The notes under the pieces: model-generated
Seen by the model: the letters and a program-made list of their open reading frames with translations, nothing else
What the model was told of the DNA's origin: nothing
Databases searched by the model: none
Shown: in pieces, positions 5,237 through 39,000 of the stretch
Layout of the letters: each line of letters begins with the position of its first letter
Position numbering within the stretch: the first letter of the stretch is position 1
Assembly (NCBI GenBank): GCA_947561395.2
Contig: OX387195.1
Coordinates: forward strand, 24,195,126 to 24,259,125
Direction: 5' to 3'
DNA: 64,000 bases
Origin: Buxus sempervirens
Lineage: Eukaryota > Streptophyta > Magnoliopsida > Buxales > Buxaceae
Translations under genes and position numbers: made by a program

Positions 5237-8200
5237 TTAATACCCATAACCCATCCCATAGTTACCCGACCCATAGTTACCCGTCCCATAGACTGAAGCA
5301 TAACTCCCAGCAGGTTGGCCTGCATGACCAGCGTTGGATCCAGGAGATGCATACATGGAACCATGAGCTTGAAAGGGTTTATACCCCTGGTCTGTGGACC
5401 CAACCACCGGGTTCTGCATCGGGCGTGCTGCTTCAGCCATGAAATTCTGCAATGAGGAAAAAGGGAGCATCAGCTTTGCAAATTCAATGATATTTGAAGT
5501 AAGATGTGAAAACAGGATGTCAGCTAAGGGACAACAGCAATAATGGCAATAAGGCTTGTGATTTGAAAAATGCGTTTGATATCCAGAGACAACTTTTGGA
5601 TTGAGGATAGAGTGAAAGCCTTACACCGGCAATACACAAAAGGGAGGTAGGAAGAAAAAAAACAAAACAAACAAACATGTCAAGGGAAATGAAAAGTGCC
5701 TCTATCAACTGCTGAGCTGTTTGAACTTGTGAAGCGGTTCCATTGATCTCAACAGTCATTTCGCCTGGTACACCCTTTGTCTCCTGTATCATGATTGTTG
5801 CCCCACTGGCCCGCCTGATATAGCTTATAGTCGCACCAGCAGTTCCAATAACAGCATCAGCAAAAGAAAGTGGAATTTGCATGTGCTGCGTGATCTGAAA
5901 ATAATGAAATCCACCACACAATGTTATTATGCTCGTGTGAGTCCATGATAGAGGGAGAGTCTCAAAATATACAAGCTTATGAAGGTATTGATGAACTTAT
6001 ATTTAGCATGTTTTTATTCTATTACCACCTCTTACAATCAACTTGCTTGTGGGCAATTCAGGTTGGTTTATAAATTGATAAAACAGTTTTAAAACAAAAG
6101 GTCTGGTAGTGGAGACAAATTTTTTCCCCAAAAACTGGTTCAGAACTGCAGTTAATAAATGTCGACACAGAAATGCTGAGGAGCAAGTTTTATCAGCAGA
6201 ATAACTAAGTATGTGCATCAGGGAATATACCTGTGTCACCATTGATTGTGGCAGCTGTGCATTTGTTGATGAAGGAGCTCCCATCTGTGAATCTCTTCCA
6301 TAAACAGACACACCTTGGTGAGGCTGTCTGTCTAAGGGAGGTAGGTTAGCTGGTGGATAATAGTCATCATGTTGCCATGGAGGTGGCATGTACTGAGGAT
6401 TAGGCCCAAAACCAGGACCACCACCAGCATTTCGTGGAAAAACATGAGCAGGGCCCCAGGATTGGTGAGGCGACATGTTTTGCTCCATTTGGAACTTCGG
6501 CATTTGCATCTGATAGGAAGATTTTGAAAATTCACCAACATATAAATCTTTCATCCTAATATGATTTTTGCATGAAACTTAGGGATCCGGAAAAAGTTAA
6601 CAGTGCCATACTAAGTATGAATTGGAAAGTTTAGGCTTACATGCATTTCAAATACTCCTATGATACTGTGATCAACCAAGAACTTCCTGAGATGAGATGC
6701 AATAAGCTCAACTGCTTTGTGCACACCTGTTGGTATCCCTTGTATTTCAACAATTCTATCGTCTTGGAGGGCAAAAGCTGGTAGGTCTTCTGCAGCAAAT
6801 ATTTCAATGATGATGGTGAGTAAAGAAAATATGATGCCATCCATCAACAAAAACAATTATAACTGAACATAAATGGGTTGTATAGCTTTCTGCAACCAAA
6901 TGAAAATCCTAGAACAAAATGCATAGGCAAAGATGGGCATAACGCCTATCTTGTCAAAACTCAAAAGTTCCTAATATGAAGCTATGACACTATATGGTCC
7001 ATGATTGCAGCAGAGGAGTTAAAAAAACATATAGGAGTGTTTCCCGTTTTGCAGATAACAACTAAAATTTGGCTCCTGTTTCCAAGTTACATGACTGAAA
7101 ATTAGATCATAGCTCAGAAAAATTAAAAAAATATATATTTATTTTAATTTTATAGATTCTGGAAGCACCATGACAAGTAATGGGGCGCCATCAATGACAG
7201 AGAAGACAAATTAAAACTAAGGAGGAAGAAGAAAAAAAAAAGAACCCTACATAGAAATGTTTTCTCCATACAACGGTGTATCTGAAAATATTGAATATAG
7301 TTTTAAGAAGATTAAGAGTACCCGATCCAAGAACTCGTACAACACAACTAGAAGCTTCTTGAATAGATTTTATAGTGGCTCCCTGCTTGCCAATCAAACT
7401 TCCACCTTGTGCCGCTGCCACTAGTAGTCGTGTTGAGACCACGCTGCCAGCACCTGGTGGAGCATGAGCAGAATCACCATCTAAACCATCAACAATGCGT
7501 TGATGAACTCTCAGTAGACCATCCACAGCAGGAGGAAGAGAGGCATCTGGTTCTTCCTTCGCTGAAACCATTACCTTTTAAAATAAAACAGGAAATAAAA
7601 AATTCAGCAGCAATACTCAGTACCTTTTCTAACAAAAAAGGTAATAATAACCAGACAACTACTTCCATTGTACATAAAGCAAACATATGTCGTTAATCAT
7701 TTTTTCCCTCTTATATAAAGACTTAAACAGAGAATATAAATATAATTTTAGCTTATAGTGATAATATATAACTAAACAATGAACATGACAAAACTGTCTG
7801 ATATATCATACCGACTTGCTGTACTCCATTCCTGGAATAAGATGCATGCAAGAAAAAAAAAGTGCTGATAAACAGCAAAATTATTAGAGCTACATATCAT
7901 TAACTGTGTTTTAATATTTTTATCATTTATGCATCATTTGGTTTAACTATGGCCAAATGATTAGTTATCATACGCTTAAGCTAACTACTTTTCTAAAGGT
8001 AATTAGGAATATTAAATTAGGGAAATGAAAAATGGATCTCTACAAACACACTTTCAACAAAAGTTGGCTTGCTGACTGATACTAGAAAAAAAATGCTGCA
8101 AGAAGGCAATGATCCGAGCAATGGGAAAGCATGGCCTGTCTAACTTCCAAGCAATCCATGGCAACCCCCGCAAGAACAAACGCAGCTTTATGATTCTAAA

Positions 8201-11200
8201 CTTCCTTTCTCTTTTTCTCTACACACCTCCTCCGAATTCACTAAATGATACTCGGGCCTCATCCCAACCTCTCCAAAGGAAATCTCTTTGAATCTGCCCC
8301 AAAACTTTAGCTACCAAAGCTGGAATAAGCAAGGTGGAGAGAAGATATGTGGGTAAATTAGACAAGGAAGTTTTAATCAAAGTCAGCTTACCACCTTTTC
8401 ACAATAAATTACTTTTCCATGAGGCCAATTTGTTGTATATTCAAGTAATCACTGGCTCTCGAACTGCTTTTGACTTACCAGAGCTTCAATAAGAATGCCA
8501 AGGTATGTCGTTGGGAGAGATCCAAGGTAACACCACAACACATCACACAAATCTAACACTTTTGAGCAATCTCCCACATTGAAAATCTTGCTTTTTCGAA
8601 GATTTATTTTCAAGCTAGATACCGCCTCAAAACAAGTGGGAACTAATCTTTCCATGAGGATTTGGGCAAGCTGTGGCAGAGTTTTAAGTGTCGGTCGAAA
8701 CCGAGAAGTATCGACTCAATATGTATGGTTTTAAACCTTCTGTGCTTTGCAAAAGAGCATAGAATAATCCACAAAGAGTAGGTGCAAGATTGACAGCCCT
8801 ACGGTTCTTAAGTTTAATCCTTCTAATAGCCCTAGAGATGTTGCTCGTTCCACTAACATGCTGAAATCTTCTATCAAAATGACAATCAGGAGGGGAGAAA
8901 GGGGATCTCCCTGCCTCAATCCTCTAGATGATCCAAAGAAACCCACTGCAGTACTATTAACAAGGATTGAGAAAGAAAAGGGATATCCCTTTGCTCATTA
9001 GACAAAGTATTAAATTCCAGCCCATCTGACAGAGGATGAAGTACCTTTTTCTCAAAAAGGTCTGAGTAGAATCCACAGTGGCCTATTGATGTCCTCCTCC
9101 TCTAGACGTGGCTTACCATCTACCGCCCGCATGTCAATATGATTTCTTCTCCCTATAGCCGTAGCTTGTTTCTGGAATAAACTTGTGTTCTTATCCCCCA
9201 ACTTGAGCCATCAAGCACGGGAGTTTTACCTGCAGCTAATCTCCAACATCAGCGCAGTCTTTTTATAGTACAACCTCAATCTCTCCCTCTCAAGCCATTC
9301 CTTGGTTTGCAGATTCCCATCTTCTTCCATCTGGTCCAACACTTTGATCTTAGATAATAATTCAACCAATTTCTCATCTACTCTTCCAAACACCTCTCTA
9401 TTTCATTCCTCAATTTTCAATTTCAAAGCATGCGATTTTCTACAGCACACACACAAATGAGAACCTTGGAACTCCAGTTCCTTCCACCATTCCCCAACGA
9501 AGCTGACAAAAGAAGTATCCTCTGGCCACATATTCTTGAATCCAAAAGGTGAAGCTTTTCAAAATTCATTTTCACACGATAGTAGGATTGGCAAGTGATC
9601 AGATATGGATCTAGGCCATACCAAAGCACCAAATTTTGGGAATTTATCTTCCTACTTCATAGACACAAAAATCAATCTAGTTTAGAAAGAGCCAAAGACT
9701 ACTGATTTTTTTACCATGTGTACTTAGCCCCTAACAACAGAAAATCCAGCAAAGCATACTGGTCTATGAATGTCGAGAACTCCTTCATAGCCAACGATGT
9801 ATATTTGCATCCAATCTGAACAAAGGGAAATATAATAACATTGAAATCTCCTCCTATACATCTTCCACCACTCCCTCTTCATGTTTCCAATGCGTCACAT
9901 ATTTTCTAAGATTTGGAATTATCATTTGGACCATAAAACATGCTTTACAATACTGGAACCGGGGATTGGACCAATGGTGCCCACTCCCGATACAAACTGT
10001 ACTGGACCGGTCAGGCCAGCGGCCCAGGGTGATCTAGGAACTTTAAAAAAAATTCCCACAATGTTTTGAGTTTTTCCCTTCAAGGCTAAGGAGAGGGATT
10101 GAAGGTGTCGCTTCACCGAATGCTGGCCACTGAAGAGATCAAAGAAGATGTTGCTTTGCCATGGTTTTGCAGAAGCCAAAAAAAGACTTGAACAAGAAAG
10201 ACTTCAGGCCTATCCTGGCCTCTCTAATAGCTATTTCTGTCTTCGATACTAGGGCTTTTCGAAGATTTGAAATTGGTAGAGGGATGGCAAAAGAAGGGGT
10301 AGGAGGGAAGAAGAAAGGGGAAGGAATGGGTGAAAAGGGAGAGGGGACGGTACATATGAACCATCCGAGTCAACTCCATTTACTATGAATCATTGTAAAT
10401 GTTTTTTTTTCTTTTGAATCGCTAATCAAGAGATACATATTATAGATCAACTGGAACAAAAAAAAGAACATGATTTGAAGTACACAAATTGTGTACCTAG
10501 GATAAAGAGGCTGAAGATCCATCCAAGAAAAGAGCATGATTTGAAGTACACAAATTGTGTACCTAGGATAAAGAGGCTGAAGATCCATCCCAAACCAAGA
10601 AAAAAGTTATAACCCTCTACCTACCCCCCTCCCAAGTCTTCTTTTTCCAGACATTCTCAATTCCTCTCTAAATTCTTGAAGGTTCTGCGGTTCATTTCTC
10701 CCCAAAACATTTACAATGATGATAGATATCCTAGAATCATTTTAAATGTTAAAATAGTGTTATAATGATACTTACAAACTCTATGACAATGTCAGCTTTA
10801 TTAATATCATGAGGAAATTGTTCTTAAAATTTAATGTGATAATAAAATAAAAGATAATTTTTTGAATTAGTTGCACCTCAGAATGCAGCTGATATACAAG
10901 TTGATAAATCAAATTAATGAATACATCATAAAAATAAAGTTTCAATAAATATATATTATGAATGTTTTAAGCAACTAAAACTCTATTTTAGCCCATGAAA
11001 GAATACTTTGCCCCTATCAAAGTAGGATTATCCTTTCAAAATTCTATACAACCATAATTACCAGTACATTACAATGAAAGATCTTACAGATAAGAACAAA
11101 CTTATACATATTGAATAAAATTTAATAATTGGCAATAATGTTTTTTTTCTTAGTTTAGTTCTAAATGTAGTATTGAAGTCATGTTAGTTCTATTTATTAT

Positions 11201-19116: not shown

Positions 19117-19804
19117 GGGAAAATTAAGTTTTAGTTGTACTTTATAAAATAATTAAAATTTAGTCAGAACTTTGGGTTACTTTTAGGGGTGCAACTCGGT
19201 CCGGTTAAAATCGAACCCGAACCGACCCAAACTGACTTCGGTTCGGTTTCCGTCCAAAAATCCCTAAACCGAACTAGGTCGGTTCGGTTTCGGGTTTCAT
19301 GTTCGATAAACCGAACCGAACCGAATTTATATATATATTATAAGATTATATATATATTATAATATATAATCTATGTTTTATATATATATATAATATAATA
19401 TATGTTAAACTTTTTAAAGTTTATATTTAAACTTAAATGATATTACAAAAAAAACCTTTATTTGAGATAAAAATATATTGGTCCAAACCGAACCGAACCG
19501 AACCGAACCGAACCGAATAGTTTTCATGTAGTTCGGTTCGGTTCGGTTTGGGTTTCGGTTTTTTCATATATTTTCGGTTCGGTTTTCGGTTTAGTTGGTT
19601 CGGTTTTCAATTCGGTTCGGTTCGGTTCGGTTCAAGTATACATATTTTCGGTTTGGTCTTTGGGTTGACATCAACCCGGACCGAACCGAAACGAGTTGCA
19701 CCCCTACTTACTTTTGTTAAAGATTTCCTAAAAGCTGAAATGCATAACATTGATGACTTGATTTTAATTATTTTCAAAACATATCACTAGCAATTAATTT
19801 TTCC
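19117..19804. mobile_element. foldback MITE split by a hAT insertion
   Basis: The flanks of the hAT element at 19184-19706 are the two ends of another element: GGGAAAATTAAG at 19117 and CAATTAATTTTTCC ending at 19804. The left part closely resembles the left arm of the foldback element at 29.93-30.36 kb (TTTAGTCAG block), so the two are one family. The hAT insertion therefore happened later. Confidence 0.6.
19184..19706. mobile_element. non-autonomous hAT element with AACCG-rich arms
   Basis: Perfect inverted ends TAGGGGTGCAACTCG and CGAGTTGCACCCCTA are flanked by an 8-bp duplication with one mismatch (GTTACTTT at 19176-19183, CTTACTTT at 19707-19714). The end sequence and 8-bp duplication are typical of hAT elements. 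The arms are dense in GGTTC/GAACC units (CCGAACCGAACCGAACC), around an AT-rich core. It encodes no protein. Confidence 0.85.
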
Positions 19805-20159
19805 TTGATATTATATATTTTGACCTAAATGCCCTCCTTCTTCAACATTTCGACGTCTGTCTTCTCCCCTTTGCCCCTGCAAATCTCTCAGTCTTCCCCC
19901 TCTCCGATTCTTTCATTATCGCCTTCCTAGATTACCCGCCAGATTCAAAATTCGGTTGCTTCCCTCGAACTTCAACTCCTGCGTCTGATTGTTTGAATTT
20001 TTCCTGTCTCGAGACCCTAGTCAAGGTTACGAAATTTCTTCTTTTTCTCGAGAAGATTTGCTTCGGGTTTGGTTGCTTTCGAGGTTCTTTGTTTTTTCCT
20101 TTTTTTTCTCTTGGAAAGAGGGGTGAAGTTAGGTTTCTTGGTACAAGAGTCCCGTTCCT

Positions 20160-20206
20160 GACAGGTTGTATTGATCACTACCAAAAAAAAAGACAGGTTG
20201 TATTGA
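20160..20206 (+). repeat. micro-retroinsertion in Alba leader
   Basis: A 15-bp direct repeat (GACAGGTTGTATTGA at 20160-20174 and 20192-20206) flanks a 17-nt insert, TCACTACC plus nine A. This has the form of a minimal target-primed reverse-transcription product: target duplication, a few template bases and a poly(A) tail. It lies just upstream of the Alba start codon and duplicates the probable leader acceptor (CTGACAG). Confidence 0.75.
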
Positions 20207-20270
20207 CTTTATGGCGTCTGAATCTCCCATTGATAAGACATCAGCAGCCAGCTCCAAATCTGAGAAGCAA

Positions 20271-20318
20271 CGTATTCACGTCGCTTTTACAAAAAAAAAA
20301 AACACGTATTCACGTCGC
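20271..20318 (+). repeat. micro-retroinsertion breaking Alba exon 1
   Basis: CGTATTCACGTCGC occurs at 20271-20284 and 20305-20318, flanking a 20-nt insert made of TTTTAC, an A-run and CA. The net gain is 34 bp, which is not a multiple of three. Removing exactly those 34 bp in thought puts the ATG frame and the Alba frame in register, so this is the lesion. Confidence 0.8.
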
Positions 20319-20447
20319 CAATAAGTCAAAACTTTATTATGTGTGCCTCGCAGACGTAATCTCTTAACATTGCACATTTTTTTTTTTACATTTTTATTTG
20401 TGAATTTCTTGCGCTTGTTCTTGATTTGAAAATTTTTGAATAACTTA

Positions 20448-21217
20448 GGCTGCGTTTGCCATTGTTTTTTGCTTTTTCCTTTTTGGTTTATTTAAGCAAA
20501 ATCATGCTTCTCGAAACAATAAGCATGTTTAGTTATTACTTGTTTTTGTTTCTCATGATGAAGCAAAATTTTTGTACTTCTCATTTTTTATTTTTTGCTT
20601 CTTGTTACTAATCTAATACCAACAGCCTACTCTCACCACCATTGCCACTCACTACCATTACCAACCACCGCTATAAAATTACCCACCACCATCATTTACA
20701 CTTCGGCTGCCACCACTTCCATCAACTACCATCCATCCTTACTTCCCAACATGGGCACCACTACTAACACCACAGATCCACCCATCATTACACCTCATCC
20801 ACCATCACTAGTACCATTTATCATCCACTACCACTATCACCATAATCCACCACCACAACCCATCATCCCCATCATTACAATTACCAACAACATTTCCACC
20901 ATCACCCACCACCATCTACCTGTAGCACCAACACCGGCCTACCACCTCTATAGCCCCACCACGACTATCACCACACCCATCACCCCCACTACAAGCCACC
21001 CTTACCATAATAGTATATTTTGTCATAATATTAGCCAAGATGCAATTTTATTCTTTTGATAATATCAAACATGCTTTTTTTGTGTTTTTCAGCAGAAGTA
21101 AATGTGAACCAAAAGGTTTTGCTTCATAAGAAGATCTTCATAGAAGCAAAAGCAATCTAATTGCTTTTCTTGTTTTTTGAAGCAATAAGCAAAAAGCAAT
21201 GCCTAACGCATGCAACC
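20448..21217. mobile_element. PIF/Harbinger-like MITE with CCA-rich core
   Basis: A 770-bp element is flanked by TTA on both sides (20445-20447 and 21218-21220). Inverted ends start GGCTGCGTTTG and, from the other side, GGTTGCATGCG, followed by GCATTG...TTTTTTGCTT in both. The TTA duplication and end sequence fit Tourist/PIF-Harbinger elements. The core (about 20620-21010) is a G-poor run of CAC/CAT/ACC triplets that creates a 154-codon open frame rich in Thr, Pro and Ile; this is not a gene. It sits in Alba intron 1. Confidence 0.75.
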
Positions 21218-21885
21218 TTAGGATGTATTTTTAAGGTGTTTGTTGTTTCTTTTGTAGAAATACCTCACAAAGTACGGTGAGGTCGAGCTCTTTGAGGTCG
21301 GAAATAGTAATTTTGTTTGTTTCTTGCTATGTTTATTATCTGTATAATTTTTCATCCATTCTTACAATGCATTTGATTGCAGACATAAGCAAAGCAGTGG
21401 CCCTAGCAGAAACACTAAAGAGAGGCGGACTATTTGTTCAAAAGAGTAAGTTCTCATCATCTAAATGCTATCAGATTATATATGGAGCTTCCTTCTAAAT
21501 GTTTGTATTTTTTGGAAAATTGAACAGTGATTCGGACATCTACGGTAGATGTCACAGACGAGAGTAGACGCCCTTCCACAAGAGCTACGGTAAGTTTAGC
21601 TGTACATTCTTGTTTCCTGAGATTTTGATTTTTAAGCAGTTTGTTGCAACTTATTAAACAGTACAGGCTTCCCTTTTTATTATCAACACTCTGAAACTTT
21701 TCCCTTTTTATTAAAATACTCTAGCAAAGTGTGAGATGAACATGTTCCCGAATGATGACAATTAAACCATTCTAATTCCATTGATAAGGCAGGTGGAAGA
21801 AGAGTTCATAATAATTTTAACTGGGGCTGTTTTAGAAGCGCCCGAAGAAGGCCATCAGAGGATCATAGACTACTTGCTTAGCATT

Positions 21886-22041
21886 TACCAAACGGGTTTC
21901 TTGTCACATGTTTTCAAAATCTCAAAAAAAATTGATTGTTATCAAATGGGTTTCTTGTCACTTGTTTTCAAAAACCTAAAAACAGTTGTAACTGTTTTTA
22001 GTTTTCAAATTGTTTTAAAAAAAACGTTACCAAACGGCCTC
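21886..22041. mobile_element. MITE-like repeat at Alba 3' end
   Basis: A segment of about 54 bp (ACCAAACGGGTTTCTTGTCA...) occurs twice in tandem, then reaches an end reading GTTACCAAACGGCC. That end is typical of plant MITEs starting GGCCGTTTGGTAAC. It overlaps the last Alba exon, so part of the predicted C-terminus is probably repeat-derived. Confidence 0.5.
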
Positions 22042-22044
22042 TAA

Positions 22045-27830: not shown

Positions 27831-27925
27831 GAGTTGAGGGGAATGTTGTCTGGTTTGAGATCATTTATGTGGAACTTCAAACATCATCTAAATGATTTCG
27901 GACCAGGCTTCATTCCCCCCAACTT
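27831..27925 (+). ncRNA. MIR166: MIR166 precursor hairpin
   Basis: The mature miR166 sequence lies on the 3' arm at 27898-27918 (begins TCGGACCAGGCTTCATTCCC). The star strand is on the 5' arm at 27840-27860 (begins GGAATGTTGTCTGG), and the two pair with a 2-nt 3' overhang. The usual TT/TT mismatch near the middle is present, and perfect pairing continues inward (TCATTT/AAATGA) and outward (GTTG/CAAC) around a short loop. miR166 directs cleavage of HD-ZIP III transcription-factor mRNAs and so sets leaf polarity, vascular pattern and meristem fate. The locus is intergenic, between the Alba and START genes, read on the plus strand. An ORF overlapping the hairpin is incidental. Confidence 0.97.
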
Positions 27926-36000: not shown

Positions 36001-39000
36001 TGGAAACATTTAGGGAGCATCTCTCCCTACCATTTTTCTCCCAGAAACCACTCTTCTCCCACCATGTATCTTTCTCATGGGTTTGTTTCATCCCCATCTT
36101 CCATTCAAGTTCTAGAGGTTTATCAAGTTGTCGAAATTTTGTTTTAGAGATAAACACTTATTATTAATTTTTTGTTTTTTTTAATTTTGAAGAAATTAAT
36201 ACGAGGACACCCTGACCTATCGATGGGCTCATTCTTTTAATTTTTCTCGAAAATATTTAGTTATTTTAATTCAAATAACTAAATATTTTCGATTTTTATA
36301 AGAGCATTACTTCAATCATCTCTCAACTGTCTTGTGTTTTATATAAAACACATTGTCTTGTGTTTTATATTAATTAATTAGCCATAAATTATTATACAAT
36401 TAAATTCTAATTTATTTTAAGAGAGGAATAGGAGAATTTTTTAACGATGCTTCTAGTCTTATAAGGGCATTACTTCAATCATCTCTCAACTGTCTTCTTT
36501 GTTGGGCTTCAAGTACAGATTCTTGTAGAGGTTTAGACAATCAGGAAGACAGTCAGGAGTTTCTGTCGTGTGAAAACTTCCTTCTTTTGTAGTTGCTGTT
36601 TCTGTTTCTGTTATTGTACACTTTTCGTGTAACTGTTTTCTGAAACCTTTTGATTTGATTTAATATATTTCCATTTTTATTGATAAAAAAATTAAATTTC
36701 TAATGATTAAGAAAATTAAGAAAGTACTAAAAGGTCAAAGAAATTTGAGTATATTTAATGTCCACTTACTCATCAATGTAAGTGGCCATTAACCAACTAG
36801 TAAGTTAAATTTTAGCTTATAAAATAATGAAAAATATTAAAAATAGAAAAATTGCAGAAAATCATATAAATATTATATTATGCTAGCAAAAAGATTACCT
36901 GCTCATCCATTAAGTGGGTACTAATTTAATATGTTACTAATTTTCGGGTTATTAAGTAATCAAAAAATTGAAATTGTTAAATATTATTGGGATTATGTTA
37001 TTAACTTATGCATTTTGTTTTTGCAAATTTAAATTTAAATTTTTTGGGATACACAATTTCAGGAAAGAGAAAATACATTGGTTCTAATCATGGGTTCCTG
37101 GACTTTTCTTCTTCTTTTTTCCTTTTTTGGTCATTGTTGGGGTTCCTGTAACTGTTTTCTGAAACCTTTTGATTTGATTTAATATATTTCCATTTTTATT
37201 GATAAAAAAATTAAATTTCTAATGATTAAGAAAATTAAGAAAGTACTAAAAGGTCAAAGAAATTTGAGTATATTTAATGTCCACTTACTCATCAATGTAA
37301 GTGGCCATTAACCAACTAGTAAGTTAAATTTTAGCTTATAAAATAATGAAAAATATTAAAAATAGAAAAATTGCAGAAAATCATATAAATATTATATTAT
37401 GCTAGCAAAAAGATTACCTGCTCATCCATTAAGTGGGTACTAATTTAATATGTTACTAATTTTCGGGTTATTAAGTAATCAAAAAATTGAAATTGTTAAA
37501 TATTATTGGGATTATGTTATTAACTTATGCATTTTGTTTTTGCAAATTTAAATTTAAATTTTTTGGGATACACAATTTCAGGAAAGAGAAAATACATTGG
37601 TTCTAATCATGGGTTCCTGGACTTTTCTTCTTCTTTTTTCCTTTTTTGCTGTTCTATTTTTTTTTCTTTTCTTTCGTTATTTATGTTTTTTTGGTTCTCT
37701 TTGTCCTGTCTTGTTTCCACTTCTTGTGGTTCTTGTTCAATAATACATTCAATTAATCATTAAAAAAAAATAACTTTCTGATTTGGAGACCCATAATAGG
37801 ACTGTATGATTTTTTACCGATCAAAAAGATAGGACTGTATTATTTTTGACAAATTGAGATGGTGGAAAAGGATTTATGATGTCAACCTCAATTCCTAGGG
37901 ATGAGGCATTGTGTTCTGTTTGTTTCTTTAATATAGTTGTTTTATTATGTAATAATAGTCTTATTAGCAGTAATAGCTGTTACTTCGTCAATGAACAATG
38001 CTATTTCTAGGCTCTTTGCTGCTGGCTGGACCACTTTCCTTCTGTGCCAATTCAAGCCTATCAAAAGAAGCGTTAGGGATTCCATTTTATTGTGGTGTGC
38101 TATGTGGGTTATGACCCTTCCTGAATTTTCTGGGTGTCTCATTCCTCACATTTTGCTGCATTGGCCTATGGCTGAGGAGTCTTAATGGGTTATACATGGT
38201 CTGTCCGGAAGTCTACTGATTGTTGTTGTGTGATCTCCTTCAATTTGCATATGAGTAGAATACCTTTTCAGTTAGAGAGGGATGGGGAGATTAGTCAGGA
38301 AGTTGGTTTGTAGTCTAGTGGTTCTGTTTCATCAGTTTTTGGGCTTTGTTGTTGTCTGTGTTTTTGGTTCTCTTTTGTATGAGTCCTTGTGTTATCTTCT
38401 CTATATTAATATCAATCTAATCTATGTGATTTCCATAAAAATATAAATAAATAAGTGTCTTCGAAAAGCATTTTTTTTTTCAAAATTCAAAAATTTTGAA
38501 TTACTTTCATGTCATATTCTAGATCTTCCCTTATTACTGAGTACCTTCCACTTGCATATATAAGCTCACACCTACATTGATGTTGTCACTTGTCTTGGGC
38601 ATTCCATACCATCTCAGGCTACTATTTTTTTTTCGTGGTTATCTTCTACTAAGGCTACTTTTATACTCTCTAGGATCTATGCAATTCATACTGTGAGAAC
38701 ACGGCCCATGGGGGTCGGTTCGGATCAATAGAGTCGCTACCATCCATGGTTCAATTTCGGGTGTGGATGGGCACCAAGAAAAATTAATTAATCTCATGGG
38801 AGTTTCAAATTTGATTCAACCAGATTTCTGGGTTAGGGGGTTCAATTAAGTGGTTGGGAAGGTGTTAGGCACCCAACCACCCCTAGTTCAATGAACCAGT
38901 TACCTTATCTAGATTTCACCCTAAAAAGAAATTATTTATTTACAATTTTAAATATTTACAAATATTAACGAAAGTTCCTAAGTGTGTTAAATTTGATACA

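Follow-up and report, generated by a model that had tools for sequence, protein, structure and literature searches.

The window, a stretch of 64,000 nucleotides (64 kb) of Buxus sempervirens DNA that was analysed as a whole, carries on its forward strand an Alba-type gene (20211-22044) composed of five exons and four introns, all of them with GT/AG borders. Two short units, each consisting of an exact repeat around an insert with an A-run, lie at the beginning of this gene, insertion 1 in the 5' leader and insertion 2 within the first exon. The features of the locus are the following.

19848..20064, + strand: leader stretch of 217 bp, 86% identical to the leader of an upstream MuDR-type gene (L006)
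20160..20174, + strand: insertion 1, 5' copy of the target duplication, GACAGGTTGTATTGA, 15-nt exact repeat
20175..20191, + strand: insertion 1, body, T + CACTACC + A9, in the 5' leader
20192..20206, + strand: insertion 1, 3' copy of the target duplication, GACAGGTTGTATTGA, 15-nt exact repeat
20211..20355, + strand: Alba exon 1, with the ATG in one frame and the Alba core in the other
20270..20284, + strand: insertion 2, 5' copy of the target duplication, ACGTATTCACGTCGC, 15-nt exact repeat
20285..20303, + strand: insertion 2, body, TTTTAC + A12 + C, 19 nt, A-rich
20304..20318, + strand: insertion 2, 3' copy of the target duplication, ACGTATTCACGTCGC, 15-nt exact repeat
21258..21306, + strand: Alba exon 2, AG/GT borders
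21383..21445, + strand: Alba exon 3, AG/GT borders
21528..21589, + strand: Alba exon 4, AG/GT borders
21793..22044, + strand: Alba exon 5, to the Alba-frame stop codon at 22042

An earlier note on this DNA had placed the ATG and the Alba core in different frames of exon 1 and had considered the introns and later exons to be intact, and the gene model agrees with both statements: as assembled, the frame that opens with the ATG at 20211 meets a stop at 20322, whereas the frame of the Alba core stays open across all five exons and the four introns have regular borders. The disruption had been attributed to a single 34-bp poly(A)-bearing insertion with a target duplication. This description stands for insertion 2 as assembled, a unit of 34 bp within exon 1 which consequently closes the ATG frame after 37 residues, with the refinement that the repeat comprises 15 nt (the 14 previously recognized plus a leading A) and the insert 19 nt. 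What had been missed is the second unit, located 110 bp upstream in the leader and belonging to a genome-wide class, in which a spacer of 17 nt, TCACTACC-A9, separates the repeat copies. Because the units are 110 bp apart and have different duplications, they are regarded as two separate events.

The leader itself is related to that of the next gene, some 20 kb further upstream, whose product carries a MuDR-type DNA-binding domain (matching segment, L006:1501-1717), so that a promoter/leader segment is common to two unrelated genes. When the alignment was followed on towards insertion 1, no such repeat with an A-run was seen in the related upstream leader. This sequence may therefore represent the empty site of insertion 1, a reading that is suggestive only, since the leader match at the insertion 1 junction is weak.

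The Alba-type copy and its relatives

The spliced Alba frame passes the Pfam model PF01918 (Alba) with 28.7 bits against a cut-off of 25, and its core matches the structures of Alba1 (PDB 9mcd, E 3.7e-14) and At2g34160 (PDB 1vm0, E 2.5e-11). Compared with these Alba1-type proteins the core is alike, but the window copy is diverged, its C-terminus is different and its exon 1 is frameshifted as assembled; the matches to Alba1 structures cover only the first 77-78 of the 124 residues searched. Besides, a genome search for relatives, in which the query was the Alba1 peptide and not the window protein, returned 13 Alba1-type exon-sized matches (E 7.4e-5 to 0.57), including three other loci at C11 39.14 Mb (three matches), C15 33.0 Mb (three matches) and C21 9.14 Mb (four matches); one of the pieces on C15 holds an internal stop. 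Given this divergence and the matches at three other loci, the suggestion of a notable loss of a conserved Alba gene found no support, and the loss is in itself of little importance. Insertion 2 looks like the event that disables an apparently redundant Alba1-type copy in this assembly, which would imply loss of function in the plant; if the plant itself carries the disruption, a redundant paralogue has probably been lost.

It is conceivable, although rather doubtful, that the gene is functional, either because the assembly contains one A too many, because the length of the poly(A) is polymorphic, or because translation begins at a non-ATG start. Errors are frequent in homopolymers such as A12, and the length of poly(A) tracts varies between individuals. 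The run in insertion 2 could be mis-assembled or variable, and a 33-bp unit would be in frame, a caveat already raised in the earlier note that still stands. In addition, the splice sites of the five exons are clean, and the Alba frame is open from 19798 and contains near-cognate codons, for example CTG at 20158, 20218 and 20260. Against this possibility stand the broken frame as assembled, the divergence of the copy together with the restriction of the structural matches to its first part, and the lack of an upstream ATG in the Alba frame, none occurring between exon 1 and the stop at 19795.

A genome-wide class of heptamer-A(n) units

The word found in insertion 1 recurs throughout the genome. 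Exact matches to CAYTACC-A8 occur at 1,263 places, while the reversed pattern yields 56 and the scramble TAYCACC-A8 yields 120. DAYTACC-A8 occurs at 1,452 places against 207 reversed, and in the list of its places TATTACC and GACTACC stand out. After subtraction of the controls (120 for CAYTACC and 207 to 360 for DAYTACC), we estimate that somewhat over two thousand NAYTACC-A(8+) places are present, a total that includes a few CACTA-like ends. The sample of CAYTACC-A8 places that was read comprised the first 40 of the 1,263 listed, all of them on C1 and two of them (L037 and L038) sharing flanks; CATTACC was present in 25 and CACTACC in 15. Exact abutting duplications of 11-19 nt were found in 22 of the 40; permuting the flanks 200 times gave 0.6 on average and never more than 5. 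When mismatches were allowed, 28 of the 40 scored at least 9 (the permutation baseline covers the exact test only), and all of these except L035, L039 and L079 end at most two nucleotides from the heptamer (25 of 28). By eye, nine of the remaining twelve (L037, L041, L044, L045, L064, L069, L070, L076 and L081) have a diverged, nested or imperfect repeat, and three (L036, L051 and L067) have no clear duplication. Among the DAYTACC places read, two of four passed the abutting test (L102 and L103), L103 being a TATTACC place with an exact duplication. Insertion 1 is thus a member of an abundant class of micro-retroinsertions.

The A-runs in the 40 places range from 8 to 22 with a median of 11, the minimum of 8 being imposed by the search pattern. 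At the nick site, a purine (R) occupies position +1 in 18 of 23 cases and A position +2 in 16 of 23, preferences that are confounded with the A-run. A minority of the 23 have extra nucleotides at the 5' junction (L042, L047, L068 and L083, as well as the T of insertion 1) or between the A-run and the repeat (L038, L049, L068, L074 and L083), like the C of insertion 2. The word of insertion 2, TTTTAC (or CTTTTAC), differs from the class heptamer, and CTTTTAC-A9 is not in excess genome-wide (37 places against 48 reversed); for this reason, insertion 2 is tied to the NAYTACC class by its anatomy only. Among the heptamer places listed on C1, a gap extends from 29.0 to 35.4 Mb around the LINE block described below.

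The word CTTTTCC-A9, which is itself in excess (157 places against 44 reversed), served as a control. Fourteen of the 157 were read, picked from the listed places with some near LINE blocks omitted, and none of the 14 passed the abutting test; in eight, the upstream sequence recurs at another place of this set, a behaviour known from the ends of longer repeats. One control, L086, has an 11-nt repeat 14 nt off the A-run, and in two related controls (L090 and L093) longer direct repeats lie at a distance of 4-8 nt from the A-run and resemble a tandem array.

In the class, the 5' limit of the inserts is sharp on the long side. In a search of the 300 nt upstream of each of the 40 heptamers, 26 places had an exact match of at least 11 nt, and 22 of these 26 repeats stop at -3 to +2 nt relative to the heptamer, including 15 that stop exactly at it; therefore, bodies longer than about 7 nt are rare. 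The remaining four end 4, 6, 28 and 73 nt off the heptamer. The third is L041, a nested double unit. The fourth is L044, in which an exact repeat of 17 nt lies 73 nt upstream of the heptamer; it possibly reflects a longer insert, of about 80 nt, or else an insertion into a local repeat. As the heptamer forms part of the search pattern, bodies shorter than it fall outside the sample, and a fixed length is not proved; the DAYTACC excess together with L066, L080, L082 and L102, in which the initial CA or GA may equally belong to the target, suggests that bodies of 5-6 nt exist.

The orientation of the A-runs was evaluated in a scan of 274 kb, made up of the 64-kb window, the 10 kb that precede it and 20 pieces of 10 kb taken at random (of 120 drawn). 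The scan looked for exact repeats of 11 nt or more with 6-80 nt between the copies, and for A-runs of at least 7. Short-spaced exact repeats numbered 248, window included. The A-run was at the 3' side of the insert in four cases and at the 5' side in none, two of the four being the units that prompted the scan; in the 210 kb outside the window the count was two against none, the pair consisting of L021 (CATTACC-A8) and L026 (TCTTTTCC-A12). A chance repeat is disfavoured by this polarity control. Looser scans, whose lists contained many low-complexity hits, were inspected by eye and pointed to L027 (CTCATC, A-rich), L018 (pure A) and L029 (CATTAGCCC-A11, with a diverged repeat). On the forward strand of L029, at about 8150-8700, there is also a 513-bp insert with an 18-nt duplication that ends in TTCACATC-A16, like an ordinary longer retrocopy, and the CTCATC-A(n) end of the L027 micro-insert resembles the end of this insert.

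The polarity and the recurrence of the heptamer also bear on whether the units could be tandem duplications with filler that arose in the repair of staggered double-strand breaks (patch-mediated repair or end-joining), their A-runs having grown later by slippage. Spaced short repeats of many kinds do exist, as the 248 in the scan illustrate, and published work has dealt with small duplications at breaks. Nevertheless, A-runs on one side only are not expected of filler DNA, and a heptamer that recurs at more than a thousand places, with exact duplications in over half of those read, disfavours this origin for insertion 1 in particular, which makes break repair an unlikely explanation overall.

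Paired units are a further property of the class, with 19 places at which 8-38 nt lie between A6 stretches, compared to none for the reversed pattern. At L035, one target repeat is present three times with two units between the copies. At C1:20889696, CACTACC and GACTACC are separated by a 14-nt spacer; since these words differ by one letter, slippage plus mutation is kept as an option and may account for the pair. Direct dimers of the form CATTACC-A(n)-CATTACC-A(n), with no target repeat between them, were observed at C3:58398303 and C4:3157185.

Mechanism and relation to known systems

We consider it very probable that both units of the window are micro-retroinsertions that arose through target-primed reverse transcription (TPRT), with LINE enzymes working in trans as the most likely agents, insertion 1 being a member of the NAYTACC-A(n) class. 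Two of the features expected of TPRT are present, namely a target duplication in the range of about 7-20 nt (15 nt in both window units) and a 3' A-tail with consistent polarity. In this mechanism, reverse transcription would be primed at a nick in the target, on the oligo(A) of an RNA; the copy would extend about 5-8 nt past the A-run and end there, and filling-in of the staggered target would give a duplication of about 11-19 nt. Insertion 2 would have arisen in the same way from a different RNA end. Two models may account for the limit. In one, the enzyme would be halted some seven nucleotides above the poly(A) tail, by a structure or a modified base; in the other, the source RNA would be primed internally, on an A-tract that lies about seven nucleotides from its own 5' end. 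Internal priming is mildly favoured by the shortness of the A-runs and by the extra nucleotides at some 5' junctions.

The class shares with 5'-truncated retroinsertions of the LINE/L1 type, including SINEs and processed pseudogenes, the A-run at one end, duplications of 11-19 nt, the polarity and the presence of units close to older ones. In contrast to the broad spread of truncation points in L1-type insertions, its bodies of about 5-8 nt have a sharp upper limit, with one possible longer copy (L044) in 40. Thus, the class works like TPRT and is not filed with ordinary truncated LINE or SINE copies. Plant SINEs are likewise non-autonomous, dispersed, A-tailed and present in high copy number, but a 7-nt body cannot hold a pol III promoter or a tRNA-, 5S- or 7SL-like body. 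Whether the class constitutes a distinct non-autonomous retroposon, with a whole body of about seven nucleotides (NAYTACC) plus oligo(A), around two thousand recognizable copies, a tendency to insert beside itself and perhaps internal priming near the 5' end of its source RNA, is in our view an evenly balanced question. In the open-licence literature, available in part, no description of such elements or heptamers was found, an absence that is only weakly supported.

Derivation of insertion 1 and its relatives from the ends of CACTA-type (En/Spm) DNA transposons is highly improbable. One CACTA-like family has termini here that read CACTACC-A(n): L051, L067 and L098 carry CACTACC-A15/A16 followed by a common body, with L099 being similar (CACTAC-A10). 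Nonetheless, CATTACC is the commoner word among the places read, an exact duplication accompanies TATTACC as well, and the micro-inserts have no body between repeats of 11-19 nt. CACTA transposons have CACTA terminal inverted repeats at both ends and a 3-bp target duplication; insertion 1 has a 15-nt duplication with only 17 nt between the copies. A CACTA parent was rejected, and the DNA-transposon-like family to which L051 and L067 led is treated as no more than a confounder.

Ordinary repeat annotation misses insertions as short as about 30 bp, and a single class of them has more than a thousand matching places. Through this class, poly(A) microsatellites arise that carry target duplications from the outset, and a unit built alike breaks a reading frame in the window. 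If a distinct retroposon class is indeed present, it would represent a LINE-driven mutator, adding A-tracts to genes and shifting their reading frames. Moreover, the limit of about seven nucleotides raises a question for LINE reverse transcription in trans, that is, what halts the enzyme or where it starts.

The genome is rich in candidate LINEs with a zf-RVT domain (11,362 at first look, of which 150 were scored). Among the readable LINE 3' ends, obtained at six of 12 loci, TTCC-A(n) was found in five and TTCCAC-A(n) in one, and LINE tails were rejected as the source, none of the six being NAYTACC-A(n). Many of the 150 scored matches lie in one block per chromosome, as if centromeric, including C1 30.3-30.8, C3 30.2-31.0, C4 36.6-37.4, C6 29.5-30.6 and C8 29.1-29.9 Mb, among others, while the rest are scattered; some of the matches in blocks have open frames of more than 1,200 aa. 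Within the 64-kb window, ARAGORN detected no tRNA, and the Rfam search returned one match, MIR166, away from the units, and no source RNA. The MIR166 precursor is located at 27833-27923 (+) with an Rfam score of 80.7 bits; together with the Alba1-type exons and the zf-RVT LINEs, it points to a land plant. The window also contains, at about 36700-37650, an exact direct repeat of 437 nt with 82 nt between its copies, the second of which starts near an A-run at 37203.
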